This document shows positions 1-21,600 of a DNA stretch of 64,000 nucleotides, piece by piece. The first letter of the stretch is position 1. Every line of letters begins with the position of its first letter. Source of the DNA: an uncultured bacterium (GTDB lineage: Bacteria > Bacteroidota > Bacteroidia > Sphingobacteriales > Sphingobacteriaceae); contig CAIKLP010000037.1 in assembly GCA_903828245.1 (NCBI GenBank), positions 1 to 64,000 of the forward strand, given 5' to 3'. The position numbers and the translations under genes are program-made. The notes under the pieces are model-generated. The model had not been told where the DNA came from. It searched no databases and saw nothing but the letters and a program-made list of their open reading frames with translations.

Positions 1-779
1 AATAGTCCGCGTTCGCCCACTTTAGACATTACGATTAAACCCTCGGAATTAAAGGGGTTGCGGGTTTGCATGCTAATCACTCCATTAAATGCATTTGGAC
101 CAAAAAAGGCCGAACTTGCGCCTACAATGAGGTCTACTTTTTGTACATCAATTTCGGATGAACCCAAAAAATTTCCTAAAGAAAAATTGAGCCCTGGCGC
201 TTGGTTATCTACCCCGTCTATTAATTGTAAAGACCTTACAGGCGATGTACTATTAAAACCCCTGGTGTTGATGACTTTAAAACCTATACTTGCTGCGGTT
301 AAATCCACCCCTTTTAATTGGCCTAAGCCTTCGTAAAAATTTGCAGCCGAGGTTTGTTTAATCGAAATTAAATCCATCGACTCTACGGTAAGCGGTGCTT
401 CTTTTTGTTTTTCGGTTAGCCTAGAAGACTGCACCAGCGCGGCTTTGCTGGTTACTACATTTTCTTCTAATAAAACATCAAAGTTGTTTTTGTTTTTGGA
501 AACCTGCAGCTCCATGGGTTTATAACCCAAATAGGTAATCAATAAAGTTTTATTACTGCTCAGGTCTAAGTTTAACACAAATCGACCATTAAGATCGGTA
601 TTGGTTCCTTGTGCGGTTCCTTTTACAGATACCGTAGCCGAATAAATGCCTTGTCTGGTAATTTTATCTTTTACCGTGCCAGAAACTTTTTGCGTTTGTG
701 CTTTTGCAGCATTCAAACCAAAAAACAATAAAAACACAAGGCTTGTTTTTTTTGCTTGATTAAGTACCGTTTTAACCAT
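1..779 (-). CDS. TonB-dependent outer-membrane receptor, N-terminal part
   Basis: This reading frame starts at the ATG at 777-779 and runs off the left edge, giving about 259 residues. It opens with a signal peptide of about 28 residues ending AKAQ. A carboxypeptidase-regulatory-like beta-sandwich follows at roughly residues 30-110 (SGTVKD, then NGRFVLN and YLGYKPMEL). A TonB plug domain follows, with motifs INTRGFN, DGVDNQAPG and GASSAFFGPNAFNGVI. This order is typical of Bacteroidota TonB-dependent receptors, which import siderophores, cobalamin, glycans or peptides across the outer membrane. The substrate cannot be told because the barrel lies outside the window. No SusD partner is visible. 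The family call is firm and the substrate is unknown. Confidence 0.88.
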   Translation of the reverse strand, partial: MVKTVLNQAKKTSLVFLLFFGLNAAKAQTQKVSGTVKDKITRQGIYSATVSVKGTAQGTNTDLNGRFVLNLDLSSNKTLLITYLGYKPMELQVSKNKNNFDVLLEENVVTSKAALVQSSRLTEKQKEAPLTVESMDLISIKQTSAANFYEGLGQLKGVDLTAASIGFKVINTRGFNSTSPVRSLQLIDGVDNQAPGLNFSLGNFLGSSEIDVQKVDLIVGASSAFFGPNAFNGVISMQTRNPFNSEGLIVMSKVGERGL

Positions 780-849
780 CGATTTTTTTTATAAAATTCA
801 ATTTACTAAAAAATTATAATAGGTGTTAAAATTGTGGCAAATGGGGGGT

Positions 850-1896
850 TTAATTACCCGCAAAAGCATTCCAGCCTTGCGCCTGAAGTGGATATACTTT
901 TTCGTTTTTACTTACCATAATAGTTCCCGATGCCTCATCGGTCATGTGGCCAATGATGGAAAAGGAGATTTGTCCTTTTATTTTTTCGAAATCCGTTTGG
1001 CTTACTGTAAAAAGTAATTCATAGTCTTCGCCGCCATTGAGCGCGCACATGCTTGGGTCTAAATTAAAATCACGCGCTGCATTAATGGTAACCGGATCAA
1101 TCGGAATTTTTTCTTCGTAAATAGTACAGCCCAGTTTTGATGATTTGCTTAAATGAATTAATTCAGATGCCAAGCCATCCGACACATCTATCATTGCGGT
1201 TGGAAGCACTTCGATTTCTGCTAGTAAATCTATCAGATCTTTTCTGGCTTCTGGCTTTAATTGTCTTTCTATAATATAATCGAAACCGGTTAGCTCTGGC
1301 TGCATTTGTGGGTTTGCCAAAAACACCTGTTTTTCTCTTTCTAAAATTTGTAAGCCCATATACGCTGCGCCCAAATCTCCCGACACACAAATTAAATCAT
1401 TTATTTTAGCGGTATCTCTTTGAACAGCACTTGCACCCAGCGGTAAAATTCCAACAGCAGTAACGCTGATTACCAAGCCCTGCTTAGAGGAGGAGGTGTC
1501 GCCACCCACCAAATCAACACCATATTTATTGCAAGCCAACAACATACCCGCATATAATTCTTCTGCTGCTTCTAAAGAAAATCTGCTGGAAAAACCCATC
1601 GAAACCAACACTTGTGTTGGCTTTGCATTCATGGCATAAATATCGCTTAGGTTTACCATAATTGATTTATATCCCAAATGTTTGAGTGGTACATAAGCCA
1701 AATCAAAATGAACACCTTCTAATAATAAATCGGTACTCAATACGGTTTGTTGAGCTGCATGGTTTATAATGGCAGCATCGTCGCCCACCCCCTTTATAGT
1801 GCTGCTGTTGTGGAGCGTAATGTTTTTACAAAGGTGTTCGATTAATCCGAATTCACCCAATGAAGCAATTTCTGTACGGCCTGTATTTTCAAACAT
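850..1896 (-). CDS. thiL: Thiamine-monophosphate kinase
   Basis: ThiL phosphorylates thiamine monophosphate to thiamine diphosphate in the cytoplasm, the last step of cofactor synthesis. The 348-residue product has the AIR-synthase/ThiL fold. Visible motifs are GDDAA at residues 38-42, STDLLLEGVHFD, GGDTSSS, MIDVSDGLASEL and NGGEDYELLF, which carry the metal- and ATP-binding acidic residues. Length is normal (about 320-350). The ATG at 1894-1896 lies nine bases downstream of the nadB stop, so the two are probably co-transcribed. No other thiamine genes are in the window. Confidence is high. Confidence 0.95.
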   Translation of the reverse strand: MFENTGRTEIASLGEFGLIEHLCKNITLHNSSTIKGVGDDAAIINHAAQQTVLSTDLLLEGVHFDLAYVPLKHLGYKSIMVNLSDIYAMNAKPTQVLVSMGFSSRFSLEAAEELYAGMLLACNKYGVDLVGGDTSSSKQGLVISVTAVGILPLGASAVQRDTAKINDLICVSGDLGAAYMGLQILEREKQVFLANPQMQPELTGFDYIIERQLKPEARKDLIDLLAEIEVLPTAMIDVSDGLASELIHLSKSSKLGCTIYEEKIPIDPVTINAARDFNLDPSMCALNGGEDYELLFTVSQTDFEKIKGQISFSIIGHMTDEASGTIMVSKNEKVYPLQAQGWNAFAGN

Positions 1897-1905
1897 AATA
1901 AGGTA

Positions 1906-3492
1906 TTAAAATATAGTGTCTTTTAGTTCTTGATTGTTTTTATGTGGATAGTCTGTGGTATAATGTAAGCCTCTGCTTTCCTTTCGCAAAGTAGCTGATT
2001 TTATGATAATATAGGCTACTTGTATTAAGTTTCTTAGTTCACACAAGGGCACAGATACCTTCGTTTGTTTGTAAAAACTTTCGGTTTCCTCGTAAATTAA
2101 TTTCAATCGGCGCATCGCTCTTGCTAATCTAAAATCGGATCGAACGATGCCCACATAATCACTCATAATTCTTTGTACTTCTCTTAAATTATGTGTCACT
2201 AAAATATCTTCGTTTGATTGGGAGGTGCCCAAATCGTTCCAAACTGGAATATTTGTGCAATTTTCTATGGTATCAATTTCTTTTTTGGCAGATTCGATGG
2301 CTCGGTGTGCAAAAACCAAAGCTTCTAATAAAGAATTTGATGCTAAGCGATTGGCGCCGTGTAATCCAGTGGCTGCGCACTCTCCACAAGCATATAAATT
2401 TTGAATACTTGATTTACTGTTTTCGTCGACTAAAATTCCGCCACACATATAATGCGCTGCGGGCACTACGGGTATTAGGTCTGTGCTTATGTCTATGCCG
2501 ATGCTTAAACACTTGGCGTAGATATTTGGAAACTCGTTTAATAGCGCCGATTTTTCTATATGACGCATATCTAAATACACGCAGTCGGCGCCAGATTTTT
2601 TCATTTCTGCATCAATCGCTCTTGCCACAATATCTCTTGGAGCCAACGAACCCCTTACATCTACTGCGCTTACAAAAGCTTCGCCCATTTTATTTTTTAA
2701 AATTCCACCATGCCCCCTTAGGGCTTCCGATATTAAAAAACTTGGGTATACGCCCGGTTCATAAAGCGCGGTTGGGTGAAATTGTATAAACTCCATGTTT
2801 CGCACTTTTCCTTTGGCGCGATAAACCATACTCAAACCGTCGCCGGTAGCAATAGTTGGGTTGGTAGTGGTACTATAGGCGTGTCCCGCACCCCCGCTGG
2901 CCATCAGTGTAATTTTAGCACTAATGGTTTCGATCTGATTGTTAATGGTATTTAGTACATATACACCAAAACAGGTTTTATCCGCATTTTTATCAACGGT
3001 TTTTCCAAGGTGATGTTCGGTGATTAATTCTAATGCAAAGTAGTGGCTATAAATCTCGATGTTCGGGTTTTGGTGTACCTTATCTAGTAATACTTGTTCT
3101 ATTTCTAATCCGGTAATGTCTTTAAAGTGTAATACCCGGTGCGCAGAATGCCCGCCTTCTTTTGCTAAATGATAATCGCCAATGGCGTTCTTATCAAAAT
3201 TAATTCCGTAATCTATTATTTCTTGAATACGCTCTGGTCCTTGTTTCACCACCATTTCAACAATTGATGTATCGCACAACCCATCGCCGGCAACCAGTGT
3301 ATCGTTGATGTGGTTGGCATAACTATCTGCTTTATCAATTACAACAGCCACTCCGCCTTGTGCATATTTAGTATTCGATTCTTCTTCGTTCGCCTTGGTT
3401 ATTATACAGACTTTTCCGTGTGCTGCTGCCTTTAATGCAAAGCTTAAACCAGCAATACCCGAACCGATGATCAAAAAATCTGTTTTCTTCAT
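1906..3492 (-). CDS. nadB: L-aspartate oxidase
   Basis: NadB oxidises L-aspartate to iminoaspartate with FAD, the first step of de novo NAD synthesis; NadA uses the product. The 528-residue protein starts with a dinucleotide-binding motif GSGIAG at residues 10-15. It shows the flavoprotein signatures KYAQGG, EGGHSAHRV, FIQFHPTALY, APRDIVARAID and CGECAATGLHGANRLASNS, and a C-terminal helical domain. Length matches the family (about 520-540). It faces nadA across a 395-base divergent region instead of forming the common nadB-nadA-nadC string; no nadC is in the window. Succinate dehydrogenase flavoproteins are related, but length and pairing with nadA favour NadB. Confidence 0.95.
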   Translation of the reverse strand: MKKTDFLIIGSGIAGLSFALKAAAHGKVCIITKANEEESNTKYAQGGVAVVIDKADSYANHINDTLVAGDGLCDTSIVEMVVKQGPERIQEIIDYGINFDKNAIGDYHLAKEGGHSAHRVLHFKDITGLEIEQVLLDKVHQNPNIEIYSHYFALELITEHHLGKTVDKNADKTCFGVYVLNTINNQIETISAKITLMASGGAGHAYSTTTNPTIATGDGLSMVYRAKGKVRNMEFIQFHPTALYEPGVYPSFLISEALRGHGGILKNKMGEAFVSAVDVRGSLAPRDIVARAIDAEMKKSGADCVYLDMRHIEKSALLNEFPNIYAKCLSIGIDISTDLIPVVPAAHYMCGGILVDENSKSSIQNLYACGECAATGLHGANRLASNSLLEALVFAHRAIESAKKEIDTIENCTNIPVWNDLGTSQSNEDILVTHNLREVQRIMSDYVGIVRSDFRLARAMRRLKLIYEETESFYKQTKVSVPLCELRNLIQVAYIIIKSATLRKESRGLHYTTDYPHKNNQELKDTIF

Positions 3493-3887
3493 TTAACACG
3501 CTTTATTGTTTGTGCATAAGCCGCTTTTTACTGTTGATAAAATGCGTAGAACTATAGGATAAGTTTTTTATTTGGTTAAGCACTTAAAGTTATCCTCCGT
3601 TTCTCCGCAAAATAGAGCTGCTTATACACAAATTGTTCACAAATTTAACAAATGTCTTATCAACTGAATAACATTTCACAAGTATCTAACATATGTTATT
3701 TGATTGATTATTAGACTTATAACAGGGATCTCTTGTTTATAAGATGTGAACAACGCGTATAAAACTTACTATTTTTAAAAAAGAACAAAGTTATTAAGCT
3801 TATCAACGCCTTCATCATCACCATTAATTTCTTTTTAAAAAGAAAAATGATATTTTATTATACCGTTAATAATTTACAATTTTGAAT
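3493..3887. other. AT-rich divergent intergenic region with DnaA-box-like 9-mers
   Basis: This 395-base gap separates the divergent nadB and nadA starts and holds no open reading frame. It contains two matches to the relaxed DnaA box TTATnCACA: TTATGCACA on the minus strand at 3511-3519 and TTATACACA on the plus strand at 3622-3630. Near matches are TTATCAACA (minus, 3532-3540), TTGTTCACA (plus, 3633-3641), TTATCAACT (plus, 3657-3665), TTGTTCACA (minus, 3745-3753) and TTATCAACG (plus, 3800-3808). Such a cluster could be an origin element or a DnaA-responsive promoter. It could also be chance in AT-rich DNA, since exact matches also occur at 30548 and 63137. No clear nad repressor operator was recognised. 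Confidence 0.3.
3828..3845. repeat. 18-base perfect palindrome upstream of nadA
   Basis: The sequence TTTCTTTTTAAAAAGAAA is a perfect palindrome ending about 42 bases before the nadA ATG. It could be an operator, or part of an AT-rich easily melted segment. AT-only palindromes arise readily by chance, so its function is uncertain. Confidence 0.3.
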
Positions 3888-4892
3888 ATGCTTTCTGAAA
3901 ATAAAATAATTAATGAATTAATTGAAAAAGGTTTTTTGGATTTTCCAATTGATCCTACATTAGATTTAATTGCGGAAATAAATAAATTAAAGAAAGAAAA
4001 GAACGCGGTTATTTTAGCTCATTATTATCAAGATGCCGACATTCAAGACATCGCAGATTATATTGGTGATAGTTTAGGTTTGTCTCAACAAGCAGAAAAA
4101 ACTAAAGCGGATATAATTGTTTTTGCAGGTGTTTATTTTATGGCAGAAACAGTAAAAATTTTATCACCCAATAAAAAAGTTATTTTACCAGATTTAAAAG
4201 CAGGTTGTTCTTTAGCAGATTCTTGTAAATCCTCTGATTTTAAGTTATTTAAGGTAAAATATCCAGATCATTTAGTGATTTCTTATGTTAATTGTTCGGC
4301 AGAAATTAAAGCATTAACAGATATAGTTTGTACATCTGCTAATGCTGTTCAAATTATTAATTCTTTACCAATAGCACAGCAAATTATTTTTGCACCAGAT
4401 AAAAATTTAGGCGCTTATGTAAATAAAGTAACTGGTCGTAATATGTTATTATGGAATGGTGCTTGTATGGTTCATGAAGTTTTTTCTTTAGAAAAAATTA
4501 ATAAATTAAAATTAAGAAATCCTTATGCGCTATTATTAGCACATCCAGAATGCGAAGAAGTTATTTTAAATTTAGCAGATTTTATTGGCTCTACTACCGC
4601 ATTATTAAATTTTACCAAAAGTTCCGAATGTACCGAATTTATTGTAGCTACAGAGTCTGGTATTCTTCATCAAATGATATTGGCTAATCCAACAAAAACT
4701 TTTATACCCGCACCACCTATTGCTAATTGTGCTTGTAATGATTGTCCGCACATGAAATTAAACACATTAGAAAAAATTTATAATTGTTTAAAATACGAAT
4801 TACCAGAAATTAATTTGGCGGACGATTTAATAGCAAACGCTAAAAAACCAATCGTTGAAATGTTACGTTTATCTAAAGATTTAGGTTTATAA
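3888..4892 (+). CDS. nadA: Quinolinate synthase
   Basis: NadA condenses iminoaspartate (from NadB) with dihydroxyacetone phosphate to quinolinate, using a [4Fe-4S] cluster with three cysteine ligands. The product has the expected motifs: HYYQ at residues 45-48, GVYFMAET at 81-88, [13 protein letters not shown] with Cys107, NGACMVHE with Cys193, and a C-terminal Cys281/Cys283/Cys286 group followed by PHM. Length (334) is normal. The ATG at 3888 is preferred; an in-frame TTG at 3882 would add only two residues. The gamma-carbonic-anhydrase-like gene follows three bases after the stop, so they probably share a transcript. Codons here are strikingly A/T-ending. Confidence 0.95.
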
Positions 4893-4895
4893 ATT

Positions 4896-5402
4896 ATGCC
4901 AATTATTAAATCAGTTAAAGGAATTAGCCCAATTATTGATGCATCTGTTTTTATTGCAGATAACGCCACCATTGTTGGCCAGGTTAGTATTGGGGCCGGA
5001 AGTAGTGTGTGGTTTAATGCCATTATTAGGGGCGACGTAAACACCATTTCTATTGGAGAAAGAACCAATATACAAGATGCAGCTATGATACATTGTACTT
5101 ATCAAAAAGCATGTACAATTATTGGCAATGATGTGTCTATTGGTCATTTAGCGATTGTTCACGGTTGTACCATAAAAGACCACGTATTAATTGGTATGCG
5201 CGCTTTAGTGATGGATGGCGCAGTAGTAGAACCTTATTGTATTATTGCAGCAGGCGCTTTGGTATTAGAAAATACGATTTGCGAAAGTGGATATATTTAT
5301 GCGGGTTCTCCGGCTAAAAAGATTAAAGAAATTTCGGAAGAACAAAGAAATTTATTAGACAAACTTCCTCAGAATTACCAATTATACACTACTTGGTTTT
5401 AA
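4896..5402 (+). CDS. Gamma-carbonic-anhydrase-family hexapeptide-repeat protein
   Basis: This 168-residue protein is a left-handed beta-helix of the gamma-carbonic anhydrase family. It has successive hexapeptide turns (for example TIVGQVSIGAGSSVW), the RGDVN motif near residue 45, and putative zinc-ligand histidines in MIHCTY and in GHLAIVHGC. Family members include Cam carbonic anhydrase and the YrdA and PaaY proteins, many without proven enzyme activity. The gene lies three bases downstream of nadA. Its 3' end overlaps the convergent lipoprotein gene by 14 bases. The fold is clear, but the substrate is not. Confidence 0.88.
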   Translation: MPIIKSVKGISPIIDASVFIADNATIVGQVSIGAGSSVWFNAIIRGDVNTISIGERTNIQDAAMIHCTYQKACTIIGNDVSIGHLAIVHGCTIKDHVLIGMRALVMDGAVVEPYCIIAAGALVLENTICESGYIYAGSPAKKIKEISEEQRNLLDKLPQNYQLYTTWF

Positions 5403-6942
5403 GGTTAATTTCTAAATCCCAATTTGCCCTAACCTTAATGCCTGCAGGATAATAGCTTACTTTTTCTGCTTGCCTTTTCAATAGGTAACTTCCTGTATCC
5501 CAAGCATTATTGTTGTTTTCATCGCTGATCATACGCAGTCTATATTCAGCTGGATTTAACAATTTGATATTTATTTTTTCTGCTTTACTAATCAGCCTAT
5601 ATACCACCCTCTCTCCAATCAAAAGTTCATATATAACATGATTTGTACTAGCATTCGTATTAATTATTAGGTTTCCAAAGTTTTCTTCGTTGTAAGATTT
5701 TACTTGGTATTTTAAAGCGCGGTTATGTTCTAGGTTGCTATTTTGTAATACACTATCTGCAATAATCAATTCGTATTTTTTATTAATTTCCAATGGATAC
5801 TGAATAATTATTTCTTTGCTATTATCACTCAGTTTTGTGTTCAATTTAATATACTTTAAGCTATCCGTTTTTAAATAAATAGAATCTTTGTTTATAATAG
5901 TTAAAGGCGTTAAACTATTAATATATATGGTGTTTGAGGGGTTTTGATAATTGTTTATATCAAGGTTTAATATACTTTTCTTTTTTTCTTTTTCCGATTT
6001 TAATAGGATCGTATCTCGGTATCCTTCGGCTGTTAAAATAATACTAAGGCTGTCTTTTTTATCTTTTAAATAAATTTCTAAACTATCCGTATTCATTTTA
6101 TCGACCAATAAGATGTTGGTTTTGGGCGTTAATTGATACTGAATATTTTTTACCCTTTGGTTAAACAACAAACTAATTTTATTTCCTTTTAAGGTGTTTT
6201 CTTTTAATTTTATTTTACTAGGCAATGCCCTGAAAGCATTTATAACGCTCAGTCCGGTGTCTTTTTTTAAATCTAAATCTGTATCGATAAAACCAACGAT
6301 CTCATCGTCGTTATCATAAATTTTATTGTTGTTGCTTTCTGCTAATGCGAATAATTTATATTTTCCCTCTTTGATGTTTTTGATTTGATAATAACCCTGG
6401 GCATTGGTTCTTGCATAATAATCGGGCTTGTTTAGGTACACACTACTATCACTAACGGGTAGCGCATATAAACCCACCGTTGCATCTTTTAAAAAATCAC
6501 CTTTAAAAGCATCTTTAACTTGTCCCCTAATGCTGATAGAGTCTAGGTTTGCGCCTGTTGAAAATACATATTGAAAATCTCTTAATGCGTTGGATTCGGT
6601 ATAATCACTCAGCGCTTCTCCAAAATTAATGTTATAGGTAGTATTGGTTTTTAAATTGCCACTCAAAGAAAGATTGATTTTTTTCCCTTTGATTTTTGCT
6701 TTGATTTTAAGTCCATTATTAGGACTAATGATCAATTGCTCTTCTGCATTTTTCAATTGCAAATATTCATCAAAGACCAATTCGATATTATTGCTATTAA
6801 AATTGGTTTGAAGGTTGTTTGGTTTTGCTTTAAGTAATTGGGGTGCTTTGGTGTCTTTTTCACCACCGGTTAAGGCCACCATATTTGCACAGGATGCATG
6901 GATGAATACGACTAGAATAAGGATAAACCTAAGCTTTTTCAA
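5389..6942 (-). CDS. Ig-like (SbsA/Big_5 type) domain lipoprotein
   Basis: The product begins with a lipoprotein-type signal (MKKLRFILILVVFIHASC, lipid cysteine at residue 18). A bacterial Ig-like domain of the SbsA/Big_5 kind follows (GGEKDTKAPQLLKAKPNN, then LVFDEYLQLKN). A carboxypeptidase-regulatory-like segment follows (GQVKDAFKGDFLKDATVGLY, YYQIKNIKEGKYKLFALAE). The rest is beta-rich without known motifs. The internal TTG at 6942 is chosen because it gives a compact signal peptide; the frame also allows TTG at 6963, which adds seven residues. About 517 residues. It follows mnmG by about 25 bases, so they may be co-transcribed. Probably anchored in the outer membrane or periplasm. The function is unknown. 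Confidence 0.75.
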   Translation of the reverse strand: MKKLRFILILVVFIHASCANMVALTGGEKDTKAPQLLKAKPNNLQTNFNSNNIELVFDEYLQLKNAEEQLIISPNNGLKIKAKIKGKKINLSLSGNLKTNTTYNINFGEALSDYTESNALRDFQYVFSTGANLDSISIRGQVKDAFKGDFLKDATVGLYALPVSDSSVYLNKPDYYARTNAQGYYQIKNIKEGKYKLFALAESNNNKIYDNDDEIVGFIDTDLDLKKDTGLSVINAFRALPSKIKLKENTLKGNKISLLFNQRVKNIQYQLTPKTNILLVDKMNTDSLEIYLKDKKDSLSIILTAEGYRDTILLKSEKEKKKSILNLDINNYQNPSNTIYINSLTPLTIINKDSIYLKTDSLKYIKLNTKLSDNSKEIIIQYPLEINKKYELIIADSVLQNSNLEHNRALKYQVKSYNEENFGNLIINTNASTNHVIYELLIGERVVYRLISKAEKINIKLLNPAEYRLRMISDENNNNAWDTGSYLLKRQAEKVSYYPAGIKVRANWDLEINLKTK

Positions 6943-6967
6943 TTGTATATAATTGATTATCAATTTA

Positions 6968-8830
6968 TTAGTTGTTCATGTGTATCATTAATACACTAAT
7001 ATCTGCTGGAGATACTCCAGATATGCGAGATGCCTGTCCAAGTGTTCTTGGTTTTATTTTTAATAGTTTTTCTGTTGCTTCTTTAGATAAGGATACAATG
7101 CTTTGGTAATTGAAATCTGGATTAATTACTTTTTCTTCCAGGTTTTTTATTTTACCCACCATTTCCATTTCTTTCTCTAAATAGCTTTCGTACTTCACCA
7201 TTATTTCTGCTTGCTCTATAAATTCGGAAGGAATATTATTTAGCATTTCTTGTAAATACACATCTCCCCTAGCTAAATCTAGCAGTTCAATTTGTGGTCT
7301 TAATAATAAGTTGATGAGTTTAACGCTATGGGGTATTTCGTTTGTTTCTTTTTCAATTAATATTTGATTAATTGCCGCCGGATCTACACTTTTTTCTTTT
7401 AGGTATTTAATAATATTGGCGGTTTGGGTAAGTTTTTCGTTTACCCCATCCAATCTTGATTGGTCTGCCAAACCCATATCAAATGCCATTTGTGTTAATC
7501 GTATGTCTGCATTATCTTGTCTTAATAATAATCGGTGTTCTGCTCTAGAGGTAAACATTCGGTAAGGTTCTTCTGTACCTTTAGTTACCAAGTCGTCTAC
7601 TAGTACACCCATATAAGATTCCGACCTTTTTAAAATGAATGCATCTTCGTTTGCACAATTTCTGTGTGCGTTTATTCCTGCTAAAAATCCTTGGCAGGCC
7701 GCTTCTTCGTATCCCGTTGTTCCGTTTATTTGACCCGCAAAGAATAAGTTCTTTACCAATTTGGTTTCTAAGTTTAAACTCAATTGGGTGGGTGGAAAAT
7801 AATCATACTCTATGGCATATCCCGGTCTAAACATTTTTGCTTTTTCGAATCCGGGTATTTTATGCAATGCTTTTAATTGAATATCTTCTGGTAAAGAAGT
7901 AGAGAATCCGTTTACATAAATCTCTATGGTATGTATCCCTTCGGGTTCTACAAATATCTGGTGTCTGTTTCTATCTGCAAATCGCTTAATTTTATCTTCT
8001 ATAGAGGGGCAGTATCTTGGTCCCAAACCTTGTATTCTTCCTGCAAACATCGGCGAGCGATCAAATCCCTCTTTTAAAATTTCATGAACATCTTCATTGG
8101 TATAAGTAATATAACAACTTCTTTGCTCTTTAGGTATTTCAATGTCTTTATAAGAAAAGTGTCCAGGGTTTTCATCTCCCTTTTGTTCTTCCATTAAAGT
8201 ATAATTTAAACTTCTGCCATCTACCCTTGGTGGTGTTCCGGTTTTCATTCTGCCCGATTCAAAACCGATAGACTGTAATTGTTCTGTTAAACCGGTTGCT
8301 GCTTTTTCTGCTGTTCTACCGCCACCAAATCTTTTCTCTCCAATATGAATGACTCCATTTAAAAAAGTGCCATTGGTTAGGACGACCGCTTTGGCATGAA
8401 AGCTAATTCCCATTCCTGTTTTTACCCCTACTGCTTTTCCTTTTTCCACCAACACCTTCGTTACCATGTCCTGCCAGAAATCTACATTGGGTGTTTGTTC
8501 TAATGCTAAGCGCCACTCTTCTGCAAAACGCATTCTGTCGTTTTGTGCTCTTGGACTCCACATAGCGGGTCCCTTGGAACGATTCAACATTCTAAATTGT
8601 ATGGTGGTTTTATCGGTGATTATTCCCGAATAACCACCCATAGCATCTATCTCACGCACAATTTGCCCCTTAGCTACGCCGCCCATAGCCGGGTTGCACG
8701 ACATTTGTGCAATCACACCCATGTTCATGGTGATCAATAATACTTTCGAGCCAAGGTTGGCTGCAGCCGCTGCAGCTTCACATCCAGCATGACCGGCACC
8801 CACTACTATTACATCGTATGATGAATTCAT
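6968..8830 (-). CDS. mnmG: tRNA uridine-5-carboxymethylaminomethyl modification enzyme MnmG (GidA)
   Basis: MnmG works with the GTPase MnmE to place the (carboxymethyl)aminomethyl group on the wobble uridine of several tRNAs, using FAD and methylenetetrahydrofolate. The 620-residue length is standard. Motifs include the FAD-binding [10 protein letters not shown] at about residues 11-20, [54 protein letters not shown] and the C-terminal [21 protein letters not shown] at 8828-8830. In many bacteria this gene lies close to the replication origin and par genes, which matters here because parS-like sites sit just upstream. mnmE is not in the window. Confidence 0.97.
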
Positions 8831-8838
8831 TGATATTT

Positions 8839-8854
8839 TGTTTCCCGTGGAACA
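8839..8854 (+). other. parS-like site 1
   Basis: The 16-mer TGTTTCCCGTGGAACA differs at two positions from the parS form TGTTTCACGTGAAACA, which ParB/Spo0J binds near chromosome origins. The outer half-sites TGTTtC and GgAACA are conserved. It lies nine bases upstream of the mnmG start codon. The call is based on the motif and on two sister copies nearby; no parA or parB is in the window. Confidence 0.5.
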
Positions 8855-8871
8855 TTCCTAATTCGGTAATG

Positions 8872-8879
8872 CAAAGATA
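8872..8879 (-). promoter_or_regulatory. Bacteroidota -7 element upstream of mnmG
   Basis: On the minus strand this reads TATCTTTG, an exact match to the Bacteroidota -7 consensus TAnnTTTG, about 42 bases before the mnmG ATG. No good TTTG -33 element is present at the usual spacing. If used, the transcript leader would contain the parS-like site at 8839-8854. Confidence 0.4.
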
Positions 8880-8939
8880 GAAATTATTGCCATTTAGCCC
8901 CATGATTGATTTCAGATCTTTTTGGGTCTATTTATTTTA

Positions 8940-8955
8940 TGTTTCATGTGGAACT
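8940..8955 (+). other. parS-like site 2
   Basis: The 16-mer TGTTTCATGTGGAACT is the second copy. It shares TGTTTC and GTGGAAC with site 1 and matches the reverse complement of site 3 at 15 of 16 bases. It differs from TGTTTCACGTGAAACA at three positions, including the last base. It has no coding context. Confidence 0.5.
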
Positions 8956-9120
8956 ATAATATTGATAAGCTTTGCAGGTATTCCCAATTAAGCACATATC
9001 GGTATAATGGGATGTGGTAGGGGCTGTTTAATAATTTGACAAGATTAGACATTTATAGACGCCAAACCGTTTTTCTATTAGTAATACTGCTTTATATTTT
9101 TTTGGGACCAAGAACCAAAA

Positions 9121-9136
9121 TGTTCCACATGAAACA
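9121..9136 (-). other. parS-like site 3
   Basis: On the plus strand this reads TGTTCCACATGAAACA; on the minus strand TGTTTCATGTGGAACA. It differs from TGTTTCACGTGAAACA at two positions and forms a widely spaced inverted pair with site 2. Three such 16-mers within 300 bases are unlikely to be coincidental. Confidence 0.55.
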
Positions 9137-9270
9137 TTTTGAACATCGCCCCCCAAAAACAGACAAACCACAAGAGGAAACAACCTAAGATTCACATACA
9201 AAATTCGCTATAAACCTTCAAGCAAACAGCCCCCAAAATCACCCAAAAAACACCATTTTTTCTCTCTTGA

Positions 9271-9290
9271 TAAGCATCAATAAGCATCAA
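9271..9290. repeat. Tandem 10-base repeat (two copies)
   Basis: The unit taagcatcaa occurs twice head-to-tail, with a partial third echo just before it. It lies in the non-coding region between mnmG and the giant gene. It could be an iteron-like or regulator site, or simple slippage. Confidence 0.4.
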
Positions 9291-9632
9291 AAATTACCCC
9301 AACAAAACAAGCACTTACACCCTTTCATAGCACAAAAATTTTTCAGATAAAACACCTTGATTATTCAATTCCAATTTTGCTCAAAGCCAGCGTAAATAAT
9401 ACTTTAAATGCGCAAAAAACTATTTATAATGATTCTAAATAACAAAAAAACAAAATATTTCTACATTTCTTTTTCTTCTAAAATTAAGGGAGGGTTAAGT
9501 GAAGATTAAATAAATAAAAAAAAAATTTTGCTTTAAGTATTTTTTTTAATAGATTGCATTTCCTATTGTCCCTAAAAGGCTCCAGGAAAAACCGAAATAA
9601 CCAAAAAAAACAACATATTAAAACTAACGTTT

Positions 9633-12600
9633 ATGAATTTAATTTCTACTAATGTAAGCCGTGTTAATGAACACAAATCAAACATTTCACAAGCCCTCAA
9701 AAGCTTTGTTTATAATTGGTTGCTAGTATTAACATTTCTTTTTGTTGGAGTGTCTAACATCCAAGCGCAAACATCTATTCTCATCAATCCAACAACAGAT
9801 GGTGGGTTCAATTCAGGAACCACCTTTGCGGATAATGGTTGGACGGTATCCAACTCAGCAAACAACCCTTGGGTTGTTGGTACAGGAATTGGCGCTTCAC
9901 CCGGAACAATATCTGGAACAGCAGCATACATTTCAAACAACAACGGTGTTTCGGCTAGTTATACACCGGATAACAATGCTACAAATTATTTTTATAGAGA
10001 TATAACGGTTCCTTCGGGAAAAACAAACATTCAACTAAAATTTGATTGGATTTCTAATGGTGAAAGCTCTTATGATATGTGGCAAGTCTTTATTGCCCCA
10101 ACAAGCATAACCCCGGTCGGTGTTGCTGCTCATCCCGGTTCTGGAACAACTAATGTACCAGCGGGAATTGCTGGCGCCACATTTCTTGCATTCGGACAAA
10201 CACAAACTACAGTCCAAAACGCTTTTATTCAAATTCCCACAACTTATGCCGGAACAACATTTAGGTTAATTTTTTCTTGGAAGAACGAAACTTTCGGTTC
10301 CGATCCCCCAGCAATAATAGATAATATTTCCTTAACTGCTACGCCACCTCAAATGTTTACTGCTATCTCTAGTGGCCCCTTTACAACAGCTTCTACATGG
10401 GATAAAAATGCAGTACCGGGCCAATTAGATAGTATCAAAATTGAATCAGGCATAACAGTTACTGCAAATGCTTCTGCTTCTACAGTTGCTTATGCTGAAA
10501 TTGGAGGTACATTAACTTATGCTACTACCGCAACCTCTTTTAGCACCACAGGTGGTTTTACGGTTAATGCTACCGGTGTGGTAAATGCATTTAATTTAAC
10601 CACCGGTAAAACATTAAACGTGGGTGGTAATTTAATTAATAATGGATCAATTGATCTTTCAAAAACAGGAGCAACCTTAGTTTTAAATAGCGTTGCTACA
10701 ACAACATCCATCACCAATGCAAATGCGATTACAAATGGTAGTACCAGCGTAACCTTGGCTGTAGCCAACCCACTAATAGTTGTTGGGCAATATATTTCCG
10801 GTAATGGTATTGCGCCATTAACCACCGTTTCAGCAATAAGTGGAACAACTTTAACCTTGTCTCAAGCAGCCAACCAAACACAAGTATCCGCTACTACATT
10901 ATCATTTGGTGGTGTTCAAGAAGCGAATGGTACGGGTTCGTTTGTGACTGGTGTAATTCAAAACTTAACATTTAATAATACAGCGCCCTATAATCTTATT
11001 AATTGGAATCTTTCCAATTCTGTTATTGGTACAACACTCACTTTTACAAAGGGTAGGGTTGCCTTGGGATCTAGCAATAGCATGACTGTAGGTACAACAA
11101 CAACATCAACCGGAACACTAACAATTAGTTCCTTAACAGAAGGCTTTACTTCGGGTAAATTTATAAAATGGTATGCCGCAACCGTTACAGGTACAGCATT
11201 TACAGCCGCTACATTACCATCGGTTATTGGCGATACACGAATGCCATTTGTAACATTAACAGGAGATTCTCGTCATGCATATTGGACTAGAGCTTCTTCG
11301 CCTACACCTACAACCGGTAAGCTCTCTTGTGTTTATTCTGCCGCAACAACATTAAGTAACACTTCTGTTGCAGACGCCACTATTATTACAACACAAGCAA
11401 CACCATCAATTGCTAATGCTATTACTTCTGGTAGTACAACAGTTACATTGGGTGCTCCAAATGGTTTAATTGTTGTTGGTCAAACAGTTACAGGAACGGG
11501 TATTGCTTCTGGAACTACGGTATCTGCTATCAGTGGTACAACATTAACCTTATCACAAGCGGCAACAACTTCTAGTACATCAACCGCGGTTACCCTAACA
11601 TTTACTTCTCCATATTCTGTAGGTAAGAAATACGATGGCAACTGGACTTTTTCTACAGAAAGTTCGAATATGACCGCAACGGGCATGAACTTGTTGTTGT
11701 ATGGATACAATGCATTTAATATTATTAATGGAAATACACGTATTATTAATGGTTCGGGTATTATTGGTACAACTTCAACACATCAAGCGGGAACAGCATC
11801 ACCTTTGTTAACAGCAAGAAGATTAAATATTCCTTTAATCACAGATTTAACAGCCTCTCCGGTAACATTAGCGTTAGCATCTGCAGACGTACCGGTAACT
11901 TCTGTATCTTCTGGAGATTGGAATACAGCTGCTACTTGGAGTAATAACGCAGTTCCAACTTGTACCGATGCGGTTATTATTAATCCATTGCACAACATTA
12001 CATCAACCTCTTCAGGAAACTTAGCTGCTAATATTACTATTAGTGCCTTAGCCTCGTTAGAATTAAGCTCGGGTAGTTTAACTGTTGGCTGTGGAACAAA
12101 TAATATGTTTGTAAATAACGCAGGTAAACTAACGGTTTCTGCGGGTACGCTTACAATTAATGGTAACTTAAATAATATAGCAGGTTCTACCATTAACCAA
12201 TCGGGTGGTAATATCATCGTTGATGGTAATGGAGGAAATGTATTAAACTCAGTTGCTACTGGAACTCCTTTAGTATGGTTCCAAGCGGGTGGTGGTACGT
12301 TTTCTCAAATCACCAACACTTCTGGTACGGTAGCTGGTAGTCCAAATGTCACATTGGCAGCAGCAAATGCAAATATTCAGGTTGGTCAAACCGTAAATGC
12401 TACAAGTTATTTCCCAGCAGGAACAACTGTTGTTTCTGTAAATGGTACAGCATTAACGCTGTCTCAAGGTGCATTAGGAACTAATGCATTTGGATGTACT
12501 TTAAACTTCTGGCCTACCAACCTTATTAACTTAACGGGTGGTAACTTAACAGTTGTGGATGGACACATTGGAACAGCAACTGCCGATAGAGCATTAACAT

Positions 12601-15600
12601 ATTCTGGTTCTGGATTACCAAACCCAAATGTTACCACAAACCATACAATTCAATTTGGTAATGGTACCTCAACAGATTTAGCAAGCACAAACGGGTTTGC
12701 AATTTCACTAGGATCACGCTTCGCCTTTGGAAATATGATTGTGAATACCACTTCAATGTATCCATATGCTACTCAAGCAACTTCATCTGCAGGAGTAACT
12801 TCTGGGTCTACAGCAATTACATTATCTGCAACCAATACAAGTATATTAGTTGGTCAGGGTGTTTCGGGTCTAGGTATAGCACCAGGAACAACGGTTTCTG
12901 CTATTTCAACAACAGCGTTAACCTTGTCACAAGCAGCTACCGCAACGGTGGCAGGCGCTCAAACATTATTATTCTTAACCCCAGCAATGGTTACTTCGGG
13001 CACAAATGCTGGTCCTGTAATCAGGGGTGACTTAACCATTACAAGTGGTGAATATAGAATCGCTTCGGGTACTACTTGGGTTGGTGGTAATATTGTAAAC
13101 AATGGCATATTAACAACGATTGGAGTCTTAAACATGGGTGAGGTTACTTACCTTAACCTAGCAACACCAACCGTTACTCGAAATACAGCAAGCATATCAA
13201 TTGGTGGTTCTGGTTTGTTTAGAAACTTATTACCATTAACAACGGCATTGCCTACTGCAAACTTTGCAAGCTTAACCATAAATAATTCAAATGATAATGG
13301 AGTAAGCTTAGCTTCTGCAGCATCATTATTATCCGGATCAAATACAGGTACAGTATCTGGTACCTTAGTGCTTAATGGTAACATCAATACAAATGGTGGA
13401 ACATTAGCATTGGGAACGGCAGGGCCAAGCACTATAGCATTGCCAACTCCAACCGTACCAACCGCAGGTACTTTAACAATTACCTCTGGTGGTATTACAC
13501 CAGGAGGTAAAATGAGAAGATATTTAACCCCTACCACACTTACTACAACCAGCACAAATATGTTTGCGTTGGTATCAGGTACAAACGTAAGAAATGTGGC
13601 TATGTCGGTAAGTGGTACTGGTACACAAGTTGCGGGATGGTTGGAAGCGGGACATGCCGATACAGCAGGTTTGGTTGCTACTAATAACATTGAGCTTGGT
13701 TTTACAGATTCAGCCGCAGTTACTACTGCGGGTTCTGCATCTGTTGTTTTATATGTTGCAGATTCAAGAATTTTAGTTGGACAAACAATTTCTGGCCCAG
13801 GTATCGCAACAGGTACATTAGTATCTGCTATTTCAGGTACAAACCTAACATTATCTCAAGCAGCCACAGCTACAACAGCGGTTAACGTTCCTTTAACTTT
13901 TGCAGGATTTACGAATGATGCAATATCTAGATCGAACTGGACTTTCGCTACAGGTGGTGGTTACAGTGCAGGTACACTTAAATTAAATGTTGGGTTAAAC
14001 GCTACAGGTTTATTCCAATCAACAGCTTTATCAAAAACATCTCCTCGTGCTATTCAATTAATTGGTGCGGTAGGAGTACATGCAATTGCTACGGGTTCTG
14101 GAGCTAATCCTGTTGCTAATAGAGCAAACTTAACTTTAGCAAACTTAACAGCGGCACCGTTCTATGTGGGTGGTGGAACTGCAGATATTCCTTGGATTTC
14201 AGTTGCTTCTGGTGATTGGAACAACGCAGCTACCTGGAATAAAAATTCGGTTCCTGCATGTACAAACTCAGTAATTATTAATCAGGGGCACACCGTTACT
14301 GTAAATAGTGCTGGTAATTTTGCAAAAGAAATCGTAGTTAATCCTACGGGCACATTAGTTAATGCATCTGGTTCATTACAAATAGGTTGTACCTATAATA
14401 ACAACTTCATGATTAACAATGGTACTTATACCATGAATGGTGGTACCCTGAAGATTAATGGAAGTATGTTACATAATGCAAACTCAATATTTAATCAAAC
14501 AGCGGGTGATATCATCATTGATGGTAACGATAGTGGTTTTGTTGCTCGAAGCGTACCTACGGCTGTTAACATTTTACAATTAAATTCTGAATTAGTTTAT
14601 TTAACAGGAGGAAAAATTACCATTACAGATCCACACGCAGCTAATGGTTCAACAGATTTTGCATTTATTTATAATAATGCAACGAGTGGAAGCACAAATC
14701 TAAATAACATACGCTTTGGTTTAAATCACACAATTCAATTTGGAGACAGTTTATCGACAAACCCGGGTGGTAATATTAGAGGTTTCTACATTGCAACTAA
14801 CTATTCTTCAAGAAACGTTGCCTTTGGTAAAGTAATTTTAAATACAGCTCCAGGATTAAATAGAAATGGGGTTTCATTTTATAACTCTACATCAGCAGTA
14901 TTATCAGATTTAGTAGTTAAAAAAGGAAACCTAAAATTATCTGGTACGCTTCGAGTAGCAGGTAATATCATTAATAATGATACTATTTCTACATCGGGTA
15001 CTCTTGCATTAAGTAGATATATAAATGCTGGAGATTCTGTGGTTACCACACCTCAAACAATTAGCGGAACAGGAATATTTAGAAACCTAGATAATCCAAC
15101 AACTTTCACGGCTGGTTTAACAAACCTTACAATCAAGAATAATAATGCAACTGGTGTAACATTAAATGTACCTATTTCTGTAAGTGGTACATTAACATTA
15201 ACATCGGGTATTGTAAACACAAGCAATACAAACCTATTAAGATTAGGAACTGCAACTCTTGCGGGAACATTAAGCTTCCCTACAACATTAACTGCTTTGA
15301 CATATGTTAATGGTCCATTTGCAAGAACTTTTGCGGCAAGTAGAACTGCTGCGGGTAATTCTTCAGCTACATTGTTCCCTGTAGGTAAAGGCGGATCTTA
15401 TATTCCTATGTATTTAGATCCTACCACCGCATCAACAGGAGCGGTAATTATGCAATCGGAAGCATTTAATACTAATGCGGGTACACCAGGACCTGGAGTT
15501 ATAGCGAGCACCTTGTCAACTACACATTGGGAAACTTCTGTGTTAGACGGACTTACAAACTTTACAAGTTCACATGTTGGATTAACGGGTTTAACATCGA

Positions 15601-18600
15601 TGCTATTATCGAATAAAATCTTACAATCTGCAACAGGTGCAGGTGCTTATGGTGCAATTATACCATCAACTACATTTACTGCGGGTGTTGCTCCAGAATT
15701 TAATATATTAACAACAAGTGGATCACAAATTTTAGCAGCAGATTATTTAGGTAATTTTGCATATGCTGATTTAACGGTATGTACAACCCCAACCACGCAA
15801 CCGTCAACCTTGACATTCAGTCAGAAAGGCGCTAACTCAGTTAGGGGGACATTTACAGCATCAACAGGTGCTTCTAACTATTTAGTAGTTGCGTATCCAA
15901 AAGACTCTTCAATAACCCAACCGGTAGACTATAAAACCTATTCGGCAAATGCTATATTGGGCAAGGGTAAAGTCGTTGCGGCATTAACACATCCTGTTAA
16001 TACATTTTATATGTCTAATTTAACGGCTGCAACTACTTATAAACTTTATGTTTATACTTATAATAATACCGCATGTTATGGTCCAGCTTATAATATTACT
16101 AACCCATTATATGATACGGTTAGAACAGCTACCACTCCAACAACTGCCCCTAATACATTAGCAGCAACAGCTATAACCAATACAGGTTATACCATAACTT
16201 GGGACGCGGATTCTATATCAACTTTTGAATTAGATTTATCTACAACTAGTGATTTCTCAACCTATGTAACTGGATACAATGCAAAAGCATTGCCTATAAG
16301 CACAAGATCAGAAACCTTTACAGGTTTAAATGGAAGTACAATTTACTATGCACGTATCAGGGCAATAAATGCGGGTGTGTATAGTAACCAATCTGCTTCA
16401 TTATTAACAACTACAGATTGTAATGCATTACCTGCTTCTGTATTACCATGGACTGAAGGTTTTGAAAACCAGACTTTGTACACCTATAACACGTTCCCTT
16501 CTTGTTGGAAAAGCACTGCATCTGGAACATATGCAACTTCTGCTTGGTATTTAACTACTACAAATCCTAATTCGGGCACCAAGGCAATAAGGTCAGTTTA
16601 TAATACAAATTCATGGGCATTTACCCCACGATTTGCATTAACAGCTGGTGTTGCTTATGACTTTAGTTTCTTCGTTAGGGCTTATTATGGTTATATGAAT
16701 TTGCCATTGGGCGTATATGTTGGAAAACAAGCAAATGCTGCATCAATGACTGATACCCTAGCCACAATTAGCAGTGTGAACAATTTAGTGATGGAGCAGA
16801 AAAAATACATATTTGTACCTGATACAACAGGAGAATACAGTTTTGGTATTAATACAGCTAATCAAACAGCGGGCACAAGTACATTTGACTATTATTCATT
16901 TGATGATTTTAAAGTAAATGTTACGCCATTACTAACTTATGATTCGGCAAAAGTAGTTGCAGCGCCTATTACATCTGTAACGCCAAGCACAACCAATGCA
17001 GTTGTTGCTAAATTACGTGTCTATGTTTCTGGTAATGCTCCTACACAACCTTTAAACGCAACTTCAATTACTGTAGGTACAACTGGAACTACCAATAGAA
17101 ATGATATAAGCAACCTTAAGGTTTATTATTCTGGTAATTCAAGTAACTTTAATAATTCTGCAACTCAATTTGGTTCAACTATAGCTGTTCCAACTGCAAA
17201 CAATATTGTTACGGGTACAACTAGCTTAAGTAATGGCGATAATTATTTCTGGGTTACTTATGATGTGAAATCTACCGCAACAGTAAATAATTATATTGAT
17301 GCAACCATTAGATCAATTACTACAAACGCAGTAGCAAGAACACCTATAGATACGGCAGCGGTTGGTAATCGTTTAATTGAGGCTCCAATGACCTTTATTA
17401 GTTCTACAGTAACACAAGTAAATACTTCTTCTGTTGAACAAAATGCTAAGAAAGAAGAAATATTAGGAGTGAAAGTGGTAACATCAGCAACTGGTGGTGC
17501 TATTAAATTTAACGGTTTAGATATTGGTACAACAGGAACAACATCGTTAACAGATATCAAAAATATTAAATTATACTATACAGGAAATAGTGCAACATTT
17601 GCGACCACCACACAAGTTGGTTCAACAGTAAGTACTGTGGGTTCAACAAACACGATTACAGATGATGTATTTTTAACAAATAACACCAACTATTTCTGGT
17701 TAACGTATGATATCGATTCGTTAGCTACATTAGGTAACGTAGTAGATGCGGAAGTGCCAAACATTTCAATTGACGGAATCGTTAGAACACCTTCAACTAC
17801 TGCACCAAATGGAGCAAGAACAATTCGTGCAGCATATTGTAAATCTAATGCAACCAGCACCGCAGATGATGATATTGGAAATGTGACCATTTCTAGAAAT
17901 GGAGTTGATGTGTTGAATAATGGTGTTGCTACACCATTGTTAAATAATTCGACTTCAATCAAAACATATTCTGATTTTACTAAAACTGTGGCTCCGGTTC
18001 AATTATTAAAATCTGGTGTTTATAATTTCTCTGTTAGTCAAATTAACTCCGGATCTTATTATTCAACAGGAAGAGCAATATATATTGACTACAATGATGA
18101 TGGGGATTTCTTAGATGCAAATGAAAAGGTGTTTCAAACAACCGCAACAATATCGCCTGCTGGAACACCTTCTACAGGACAGTTTACGGTACCTTGTGAT
18201 GCGGTTAGCGGTTTTGCAAGAATGAGGGTGGTTTTGATAGAATCAACTGCAGCTCCAGCTTCATGTGGTACATATACTTGGGGTGAAACAGAAGATTATA
18301 CCGTTCAATTAATTCCATCAAAAAGAGCTTTTGTAAGTAGTAACACTTCACAAGACACCACATTAATTTCTGCTGGTAGTGTGGATGAAAAAATCGTCGG
18401 CATACCAGTTGTTACTTCGGGTTGTGGCGATAGTTTAATTGTTTCAAGCTTTAGCTTTGGAATTGGACAAACTACTGCAGCGAGTGATATCTTAACAGCA
18501 AAATTATATTATACCAATTCAATCAATAGATTCTCGACCGACTCATTGTTTGGTTCAACATCGGTAACTGGTAATACCTTTACTATTACAGGTTTGAAGA

Positions 18601-21600
18601 GAATGGCAACTGATACAAGTTGGTTCTGGTTAGCATATGATGTCAAACCAACCGCAGCGGTGAACAATCAAATTGACGCATCTGTTACAAACCATACAAT
18701 TAATGGTGTTGTAAGTAGTCCATCAGTTCAAAGTCCAGCAGGTTTTAGGGTTATTGCACCACCTGCAACTTATATATCTTCTACTGCTTATTCACAAATG
18801 ACATCTGATGTATATCAGGGTACGAAAAGAAATGTGATGTTGAGGGGTGTAATTAGAATGAGTGGTGGTTCTCCGGTAGCATTAAATTCTATGGATTTCA
18901 ACACAACAGGTAGCACATCGGCGAATGTTGATGTTGACTCAGCAGAAGTTTGGTTCTCTTCAGATTCAACAACATTCTCTCAAACACTTACTAACAGATA
19001 TGGCTCTGCATATTTAAATCCTAATGGTAGCTTTACAGTATCAGGGTCTAAATTATTAAAATCTGGCGCCAATTATTTCTGGTTAACTTACAGTATACCA
19101 ACAACAGCAACAATAAATAATTTATTAGATGCTGAATTCACATCATCTAATATTGCAAACAGTGTAAAAACCCCTACTTTATCGGCACCTGCAGGTTCTA
19201 GAACCATTAAAGCGCCATATTGTGACTCATATGCTTTAGATGTTGATGATGAGGATATCGGTGGGGTGGTATTTAGCACAATTGCTACTGGTACTGATTT
19301 TACACCATTATCTAATATATTATCGGTAAATACCTATACTAACTTTACATCATTGCCAGCTGCTCCTGTTCAAAAAAGGGTGCCTACGCCAATAACAGTA
19401 TATATTATTAATTCATCAGCATTCTCTTATACAACATCGGTTAATGTGTTTATAGATTACAACCACAATTCGGTATTTGATTTACCTGGTGAGAGAGTTG
19501 CGCAAAACGTGCTGGCATCAGTTGCATCGGGTGGTTCTAGAAACTTTACCGCAAACATTAACATTCCAATTACTGCAATGTTAGGTGAAACCAGAATGAG
19601 GGTTGTTGCTGTTGAAACTTCAACTGCATTATTGGCTCCTTGTGGAACATATACTTGGGGTGAAACAGAAGATTATGTTGTAAATATTTTACCTCCTCCA
19701 CCAGGCGATTGGTATAACCCAGTATTTACTTCTGTAACATCAACTCCAAATGGAAATGCATGTTTAGCAGTACCACATCTAATTACCGCAGATATTACAG
19801 ATTCATCTGGAATATATCCTCCAACAATTAGATATGCAGTTAATGGTGTTAAACAAGCTCCAATAGGCATGTCAAGAACAGGTGCGACAACATTTGTTGG
19901 AACAATTCCTACTTACGTAAATCAATCAATTGCATACGATATTTATGCAACGGATAGTAGTGCTAATCAAAACTTTGATAGTTCTGCAGTATTTACTTAT
20001 ATCGATCAATACTTAAGTGTTTATGCAGGTGAAGATGAAATAGGAACTATAGGTTCGGGTACAAAACTTACAGCATACTCAAACTTATTAAATAGTATGA
20101 GAATCACAGAAGTTAACCTTTATGGTTATTATGGAACAGGTACACAAACGGTTTATCCTCCATATTTGAATACTACGACATTAAAAGATGATAACGTAGA
20201 GATAACCAATATGGGTTCTGTACCAATGAACTTATCAGGCTTTACATTCCAAACTGTGGGGGCAAATGTGAATACATTAGTATTCCCTGCAGGAACGATT
20301 GTTATGCCAGACTCGGTAGCAGTTATTAGAATGGCATCTGGAACACCAAATCCACTTTATAATTACTTTACAACTGCTGGTTTTGGTCCTAGTTCGGGTT
20401 CTGCAATGGGCGTGATTTTAAAAGATCCTAGTGGTGTAATTATTGATGCAATTGCATTGAACACCTATACATTCCCAAGTTCAACAGGTGTAACTTCTGC
20501 AGATTGGAGTGGAGCAGGTATTAGCAGTCCATCAGGTCAAGCCGGACCATCATTATCAGGTTCAGATAATAATACAGCAACCAATTGGCTACCTTCTGCA
20601 ACACTTACAACATCAATGGGTTACAAAAACACAGGATTGGTTTCAGTAGCTACTCCTACAGTTACTTGGACAGGTTCGCAATTAGGCGCACCAATGACAG
20701 GGGCCCAAATTATGACACCAAACTATACAAGTTTTGGAACCTATACATATGTAGCAAGTTTATCTGATGGAACTTGTACAGCTACAGATACTGTTAAAGT
20801 AACCGCTATTACACCATATGTAATTAATTTAGGTGCAAACACAGCAATTTGTCCTGGTTCAGCAATAACATTAGATGCTGGAGTGCTTACAGATGCAACC
20901 TATTTATGGAGTACTGGTGCAACAACGCAAACAATAAATGTATCAACAGCGGGCACTTATTCTGTAACTGCAACTTCTGCTCTTTATGGAAAAACTGCAA
21001 CAGATACAATTGAGGTAACAATGGGATCGTTCCCAATCAAACCATTCGGAGCCGATACAACATTCTGTAGAAATGGTTTATTTGTATGTGATGCATTAAA
21101 TCCGGGTTCAACATACCTATGGAGTAATGGAGCTACAACGCAAACAATAAACGCAACATTAGCAGGAACATATTCTGTAAGAATTTCAAGTGCAGCAGGT
21201 TGTGTAACGATGGACACAATGACCTTGAGTTACAAAACAGCACCAGTGGTTAATTTAGGTGCAGATGTTTCAATTTGCCCAGGTTCAAGTGCAACTTTAG
21301 ATGCGGGAAATCCTGGATTAACCTATCTATGGAGCACTGGAGCAACTACGCAAACAATTGTAGCTACAACAGCCGGACAATATATAGTTACCGTATTTGG
21401 AACAAACGGATGTTCTAGTAATGACACCTTAACTTTATCGTTAAAAGCTGTTCCAGTAGTTAATTTAGGAGTAGATCAAAACATTTGTACAAGTGATACC
21501 ATTACATTAAATGCTGCTAACCCTGGTGCTACCTATTTGTGGAGTACAGGTGAAACTACTCAAACAATTAGTGTAAACTTAGCAAACACTTATTCGGTGG

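Follow-up and report, generated by a model that had tools for sequence, protein, structure and literature searches.

A cluster of parS-type sites upstream of mnmG in an uncultured member of the Bacteroidota

The mnmG upstream region

The 64 kb of DNA analysed here (the window) form the start of contig C37, which is 100,210 bases long and belongs to a 1.95 Mb genome that is assembled in 99 contigs and 99.45% complete. Since the nearest named homologues of its MnmG protein, from Mucilaginibacter, Pedobacter and Sphingobacterium, are at most 73-75% identical to it, the source genome appears to be that of a small-genome relative of the Sphingobacteriaceae. The gene mnmG (gidA) starts at 8830 on the minus strand and the next gene at 9633 on the plus strand, and the 802-base non-coding gap between them (8831-9632) holds three 16-mers that resemble the ParB-binding site parS, TGTTTCACGTGAAACA. 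The features of the region are the following:

3493-3881: gap between the divergent genes nadA and nadB with a cluster of DnaA-box-like 9-mers, candidate oriC, ~5 kb from the parS cluster
6968-8830, minus strand: mnmG (gidA), conserved neighbour of parS (Pfam GIDA, E = 2.9e-164)
8839-8854, plus strand in the scan: parS1, TGTTTCCCGTGGAACA, two mismatches to TGTTTCACGTGAAACA, 8 bases upstream of the mnmG start codon
8872-8879, minus strand: putative -7 box TATCTTTG of the mnmG promoter, Bacteroidota type, between parS1 and parS2
8940-8955, plus strand in the scan: parS2, TGTTTCATGTGGAACT, three mismatches to TGTTTCACGTGAAACA, the weakest of the three
9121-9136, read on the minus strand: parS3, TGTTTCATGTGGAACA, two mismatches to TGTTTCACGTGAAACA

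Against the family form TGTTTCACGTGGAACA, also written TGTTYCACGTGRAACA, parS1 and parS3 have one mismatch each and parS2 has two, so that the three stand one to three mismatches from one or other form. A first-pass annotation of this DNA had described three parS-like 16-mers, and its coordinates and mismatch counts are reproduced exactly. The “inverted pair” that it saw in the second and third copies adds no meaning, because each parS is itself a palindrome.

The putative -7 box begins 49 bases before the ATG and is kept in a second species of the genus, G003; given its place between parS2 and parS1, parS1 would fall in the 5' untranslated region of mnmG. Among the mnmG loci of relatives, a -7 box upstream of parS is not consistently present. 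A search of window positions 1-10000 for structured RNA near the sites gave no Rfam match. Across the gap from mnmG, a gene of 4191 codons (9633-22208, plus strand) starts 497 bases from parS3; it is rich in repeats, resembles a surface-protein gene and has a sorting-like region at its C-terminal end. G003 has a different secreted-protein gene in its place.

Conservation of the sites and their linkage to mnmG

Comparison within the genus was made with G003, the MnmG of which is 95% identical; the remaining four congeners gave either no mnmG or a match starting at residue 133, 162 or 398. At the same locus, G003 also has three sites upstream of mnmG. parS1 is base-for-base identical in the two species and equally distant from mnmG, and parS3 has an identical 16-mer at the aligned position, in reversed orientation, whereas the rest of the gap differs by many changes and indels. 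parS2 has no aligned counterpart in G003, whose second site is its own.

The same arrangement is found far beyond the genus. In 70 of 80 mnmG loci from named genomes, a site with at most one mismatch lies within 500 bases upstream of the gene; the 40 kb upstream of mnmG in these 80 loci contain 127 sites versus 13 in the remaining 1.5 Mb, and twenty permuted palindromes gave 0 sites each. Of 99 evenly sampled Bacteroidota genomes, 75 contain the exact sequence TGTTYCAYGTGRAACA. Among the 44 genomes of the phylum with matches listed, 41 have a site within 1 kb of mnmG; 16 of the 44 have sites at both ends of the gene and six only past its 3' end. A position of parS beside mnmG is thus common to most sampled Bacteroidota with a recognisable site. 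Among the papers accessible to a literature search, none was found to state this linkage or the candidate oriC, although the survey by Livny et al. (2007) may already note the linkage; the kind of element, ParABS, is known, and the new details are the fixed mnmG address of parS and the candidate oriC. In family f15 and several others, mnmG is bracketed by two parS sites, one immediately ahead of the start of the gene and one immediately past its end.

The partition proteins

The first-pass annotation had singled out the presence of a ParB homologue for checking; one is encoded in a ParA-ParB operon of the chromosomal type on contig C87, with parB running off the end of that contig and continuing at an end of contig C33. 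Its partner gene is located as follows:

L006, 581-1384: ParA ATPase, next to parB (AAA_31, E = 2.7e-69)

ParB combines the CTP-binding motifs GERR and ENIQR with an HTH_ParB region and a C-terminal dimerisation domain. In Caulobacter numbering it carries K171, R173, N178 and G201, the residues of ParBs that read parS (PMC7383237), and none of the four varies in an alignment of 30 ParBs; R173 and G201 are the parS-determining ones. Where the Noc type has Q173, K179, K184 and R201, this ParB has R173, Y179, K184 and G201. Genes for Smc (a 1197-aa frame) and ScpA were also found in the genome. The parAB genes are not beside parS or mnmG and lie on other contigs in this genome; in two single-contig relatives, parB and parS are ~1 Mb apart (962 kb and 4168 kb, respectively, of 4.3 Mb in G012; 311 kb and 3692 kb of 4.4 Mb in G030). 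A second ParB_N domain occurs in a 743-aa open frame (L008, G000:C9:48957-49139), which is not in a parAB operon as far as examined.

The short distance of 8 bases between parS1 and the mnmG start codon, and the conservation of a site near the start, could also mean that the sites are operators with no part in partition, at which a transcription factor would control mnmG or the giant surface-protein gene. This function is very unlikely: the 16-base palindrome is the full ParB motif, the residues that read parS are retained in ParB, and 22 of the 44 phylum genomes with matches listed have a site past the 3' end of mnmG, where an operator makes little sense. With sites also at both ends of the gene or only past its 3' end, the linkage to mnmG does not resemble that of an operator.

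An asymmetric core

The CACGTG core is nearly invariant elsewhere, but each of the three sites deviates from it, and in one half only: one half is consensus or near-consensus GTGGAACA, the other is changed to T at position 8 or to C at position 7. These altered positions are 98-99% conserved in other genera; a weight matrix was built from 124 sites upstream of mnmG in other genera, chosen for closeness to the consensus and with this genus excluded. G003 shares the half-site deviation, which thus occurs in each of the two species of the genus whose locus can be read. Because all three sites leave the core at such conserved positions, their affinity for ParB may be lower. At the DNA-contact positions of ParB, no change matching the altered core was found; one residue in the helix-turn-helix region, I/V to L, is specific to the genus.

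The asymmetric loss of the core in every site would also be expected of degenerating parS remnants that are no longer bound, the real parS being located elsewhere or in an unassembled gap. Such decay is most improbable, since a search for a better site elsewhere in this 99.45% complete genome found none, ParB is intact, and parS1 and the (reversed) 16-mer of parS3 have been kept in G003 despite diverged flanks.

Rarity of the sites

Within the 64-kb window, no match with up to three mismatches to TGTTTCACGTGAAACA exists besides the three sites. Shuffled sequence is expected to give 0.42 matches, and one of 100 shuffles reached three, with clustering not required. Across the genome, five sites have at most two mismatches to TGTTTCACGTGGAACA, of which three fall within 298 bases here and the other two both lie on other contigs; a reversed control pattern gave zero genome sites at this threshold. 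The genome-wide scan proposed in the first-pass annotation thus found that the sites are not scattered round the genome. With the weight matrix, the three sites score 22.1, 21.1 and 18.4 bits and the next highest score in the 100 kb contig is 4.0; simulated sequence (ten contigs, ~1 Mb) peaks at 10.9 bits, with no 16-mer reaching 18.4. Although ~0.4 matches at up to three mismatches are expected per 64 kb, the probability of a chance resemblance in an AT-rich gap is negligible: it is refuted by the conservation at the 80 mnmG loci and by matrix scores far above background, and it does not account for three conserved sites within 298 bases.

The rarity of the sites, the ParA-ParB operon and the conservation in the congener and at mnmG throughout the phylum all support the parS reading of the first-pass annotation: the three sites are almost certainly a chromosomal parS cluster (bacterial centromere) of an ordinary ParABS system.

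Proximity to the origin and a candidate oriC

Because the genome is a 99-contig assembly, the origin-proximal position of the cluster is inferred by comparison with relatives; along contig C37 itself, noise in the skew prevents an origin from being located. Skew profiles were sampled along parts of the circular, single-contig genomes of four relatives. The distance between the skew-fitted origin and the cluster is 0.2% of the genome in G117, 2.4% in G154 (a loose fit) and 2.6% in G066; G056 is ambiguous, with a local change of skew sign at the cluster and the best global fit 9% of the genome away. Skew in three of the four relatives, together with a DnaA-box-rich gap 5 kb away, argues for the earlier suggestion that this DNA lies near oriC.

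The DnaA-box-like 9-mers of the nadA/nadB gap are at 3511, 3532 and 3622, with weaker ones in addition. In 39 relatives, this gap has 4.3 such 9-mers per kb versus 0.46 in the flanks (~nine-fold), and its 76 DnaA-box matches exceed those of all 300 permuted 9-mers (maximum 34). The gap is also enriched in other AT-rich 9-mers like TTATTAACA, and the box is absent from the gap in some Mucilaginibacter and Pedobacter loci; for these two reasons, a location of oriC in the nadA/nadB gap is likely rather than certain. The gap aligns with that of G003 at 91% identity. The parS gap (8831-9632) was rejected as oriC, as it has no DnaA box within one mismatch.

The gene order mnmG, Ig-like protein gene, carbonic-anhydrase-like gene, nadA/nadB and thiL is largely conserved in relatives. 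In this genus nadB and nadA (1906-4892) have exchanged places compared with other Sphingobacteriaceae-like genomes, a pattern that a small inversion with the candidate oriC at its centre would produce.

Proposed mechanism and meaning

The cluster could act in partition in the following manner: a single ParB of the ParABS type presumably binds each 16-mer via its helix-turn-helix, closes into a CTP-dependent clamp and slides into neighbouring DNA (spreading). The ParB partition complex would then be moved by ParA and would probably recruit Smc-ScpAB; SMC loading at the cluster is possible, because the genes for Smc and ScpA exist. As the cluster lies ~5 kb from the probable oriC, the origin region would be segregated first.

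A more far-reaching combination of these observations is tentative and, as a whole, rather unlikely: the centromere of Bacteroidota may have stayed at mnmG, in the 5' untranslated region or at both ends of the gene, because ParB loading and mnmG transcription are functionally coupled, even as parAB came to lie as much as ~1 Mb away; the parS sites of this genus would have become asymmetric, with one half consensus, and would load ParB by a modified route.

Chromosome segregation has received little study in this phylum, and the results now supply a sequence address for its centromere, along with a candidate address for its origin: the places to look are beside mnmG and, for the origin in Sphingobacteriaceae-like genomes, in the nadA/nadB gap. 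dnaA is an unreliable origin marker (PMC10197239), and the mnmG and nadA/nadB addresses help to orient fragmented assemblies and metagenome replication-rate estimates. They also raise a testable question, namely why parS stays with mnmG while parAB does not.

Comparison with known systems

Chromosomal parS clusters of ParABS are known from Bacillus subtilis and Caulobacter crescentus (reviewed in PMC7333895). The present cluster is like these in its clustered 16-base palindromes, in a probably origin-proximal position, in one canonical ParB with ParA, and in the presence of Smc and ScpA genes; it is unlike them in that parAB lies away from parS and mnmG and that the core is asymmetric in this genus. 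The gut Bacteroidota Bacteroides caecimuris and Muribaculum intestinale (PMC10197239) are comparable in having clustered parS at the skew-defined origin, a ParABS system and an oriC that is not always at dnaA. In these two species no known condensin was found, whereas the present genome has Smc and ScpA; the main text of that study is without mention of gidA/mnmG. The Noc binding site (NBS) of Firmicutes (PMC7383237) offers a third comparison: one half of parS1 matches NBS in its C at position 6 (numbered as in NBS), whereas its other half and position 1 are of the parS type, and ParB carries the pair R173/G201 rather than Q173/R201.
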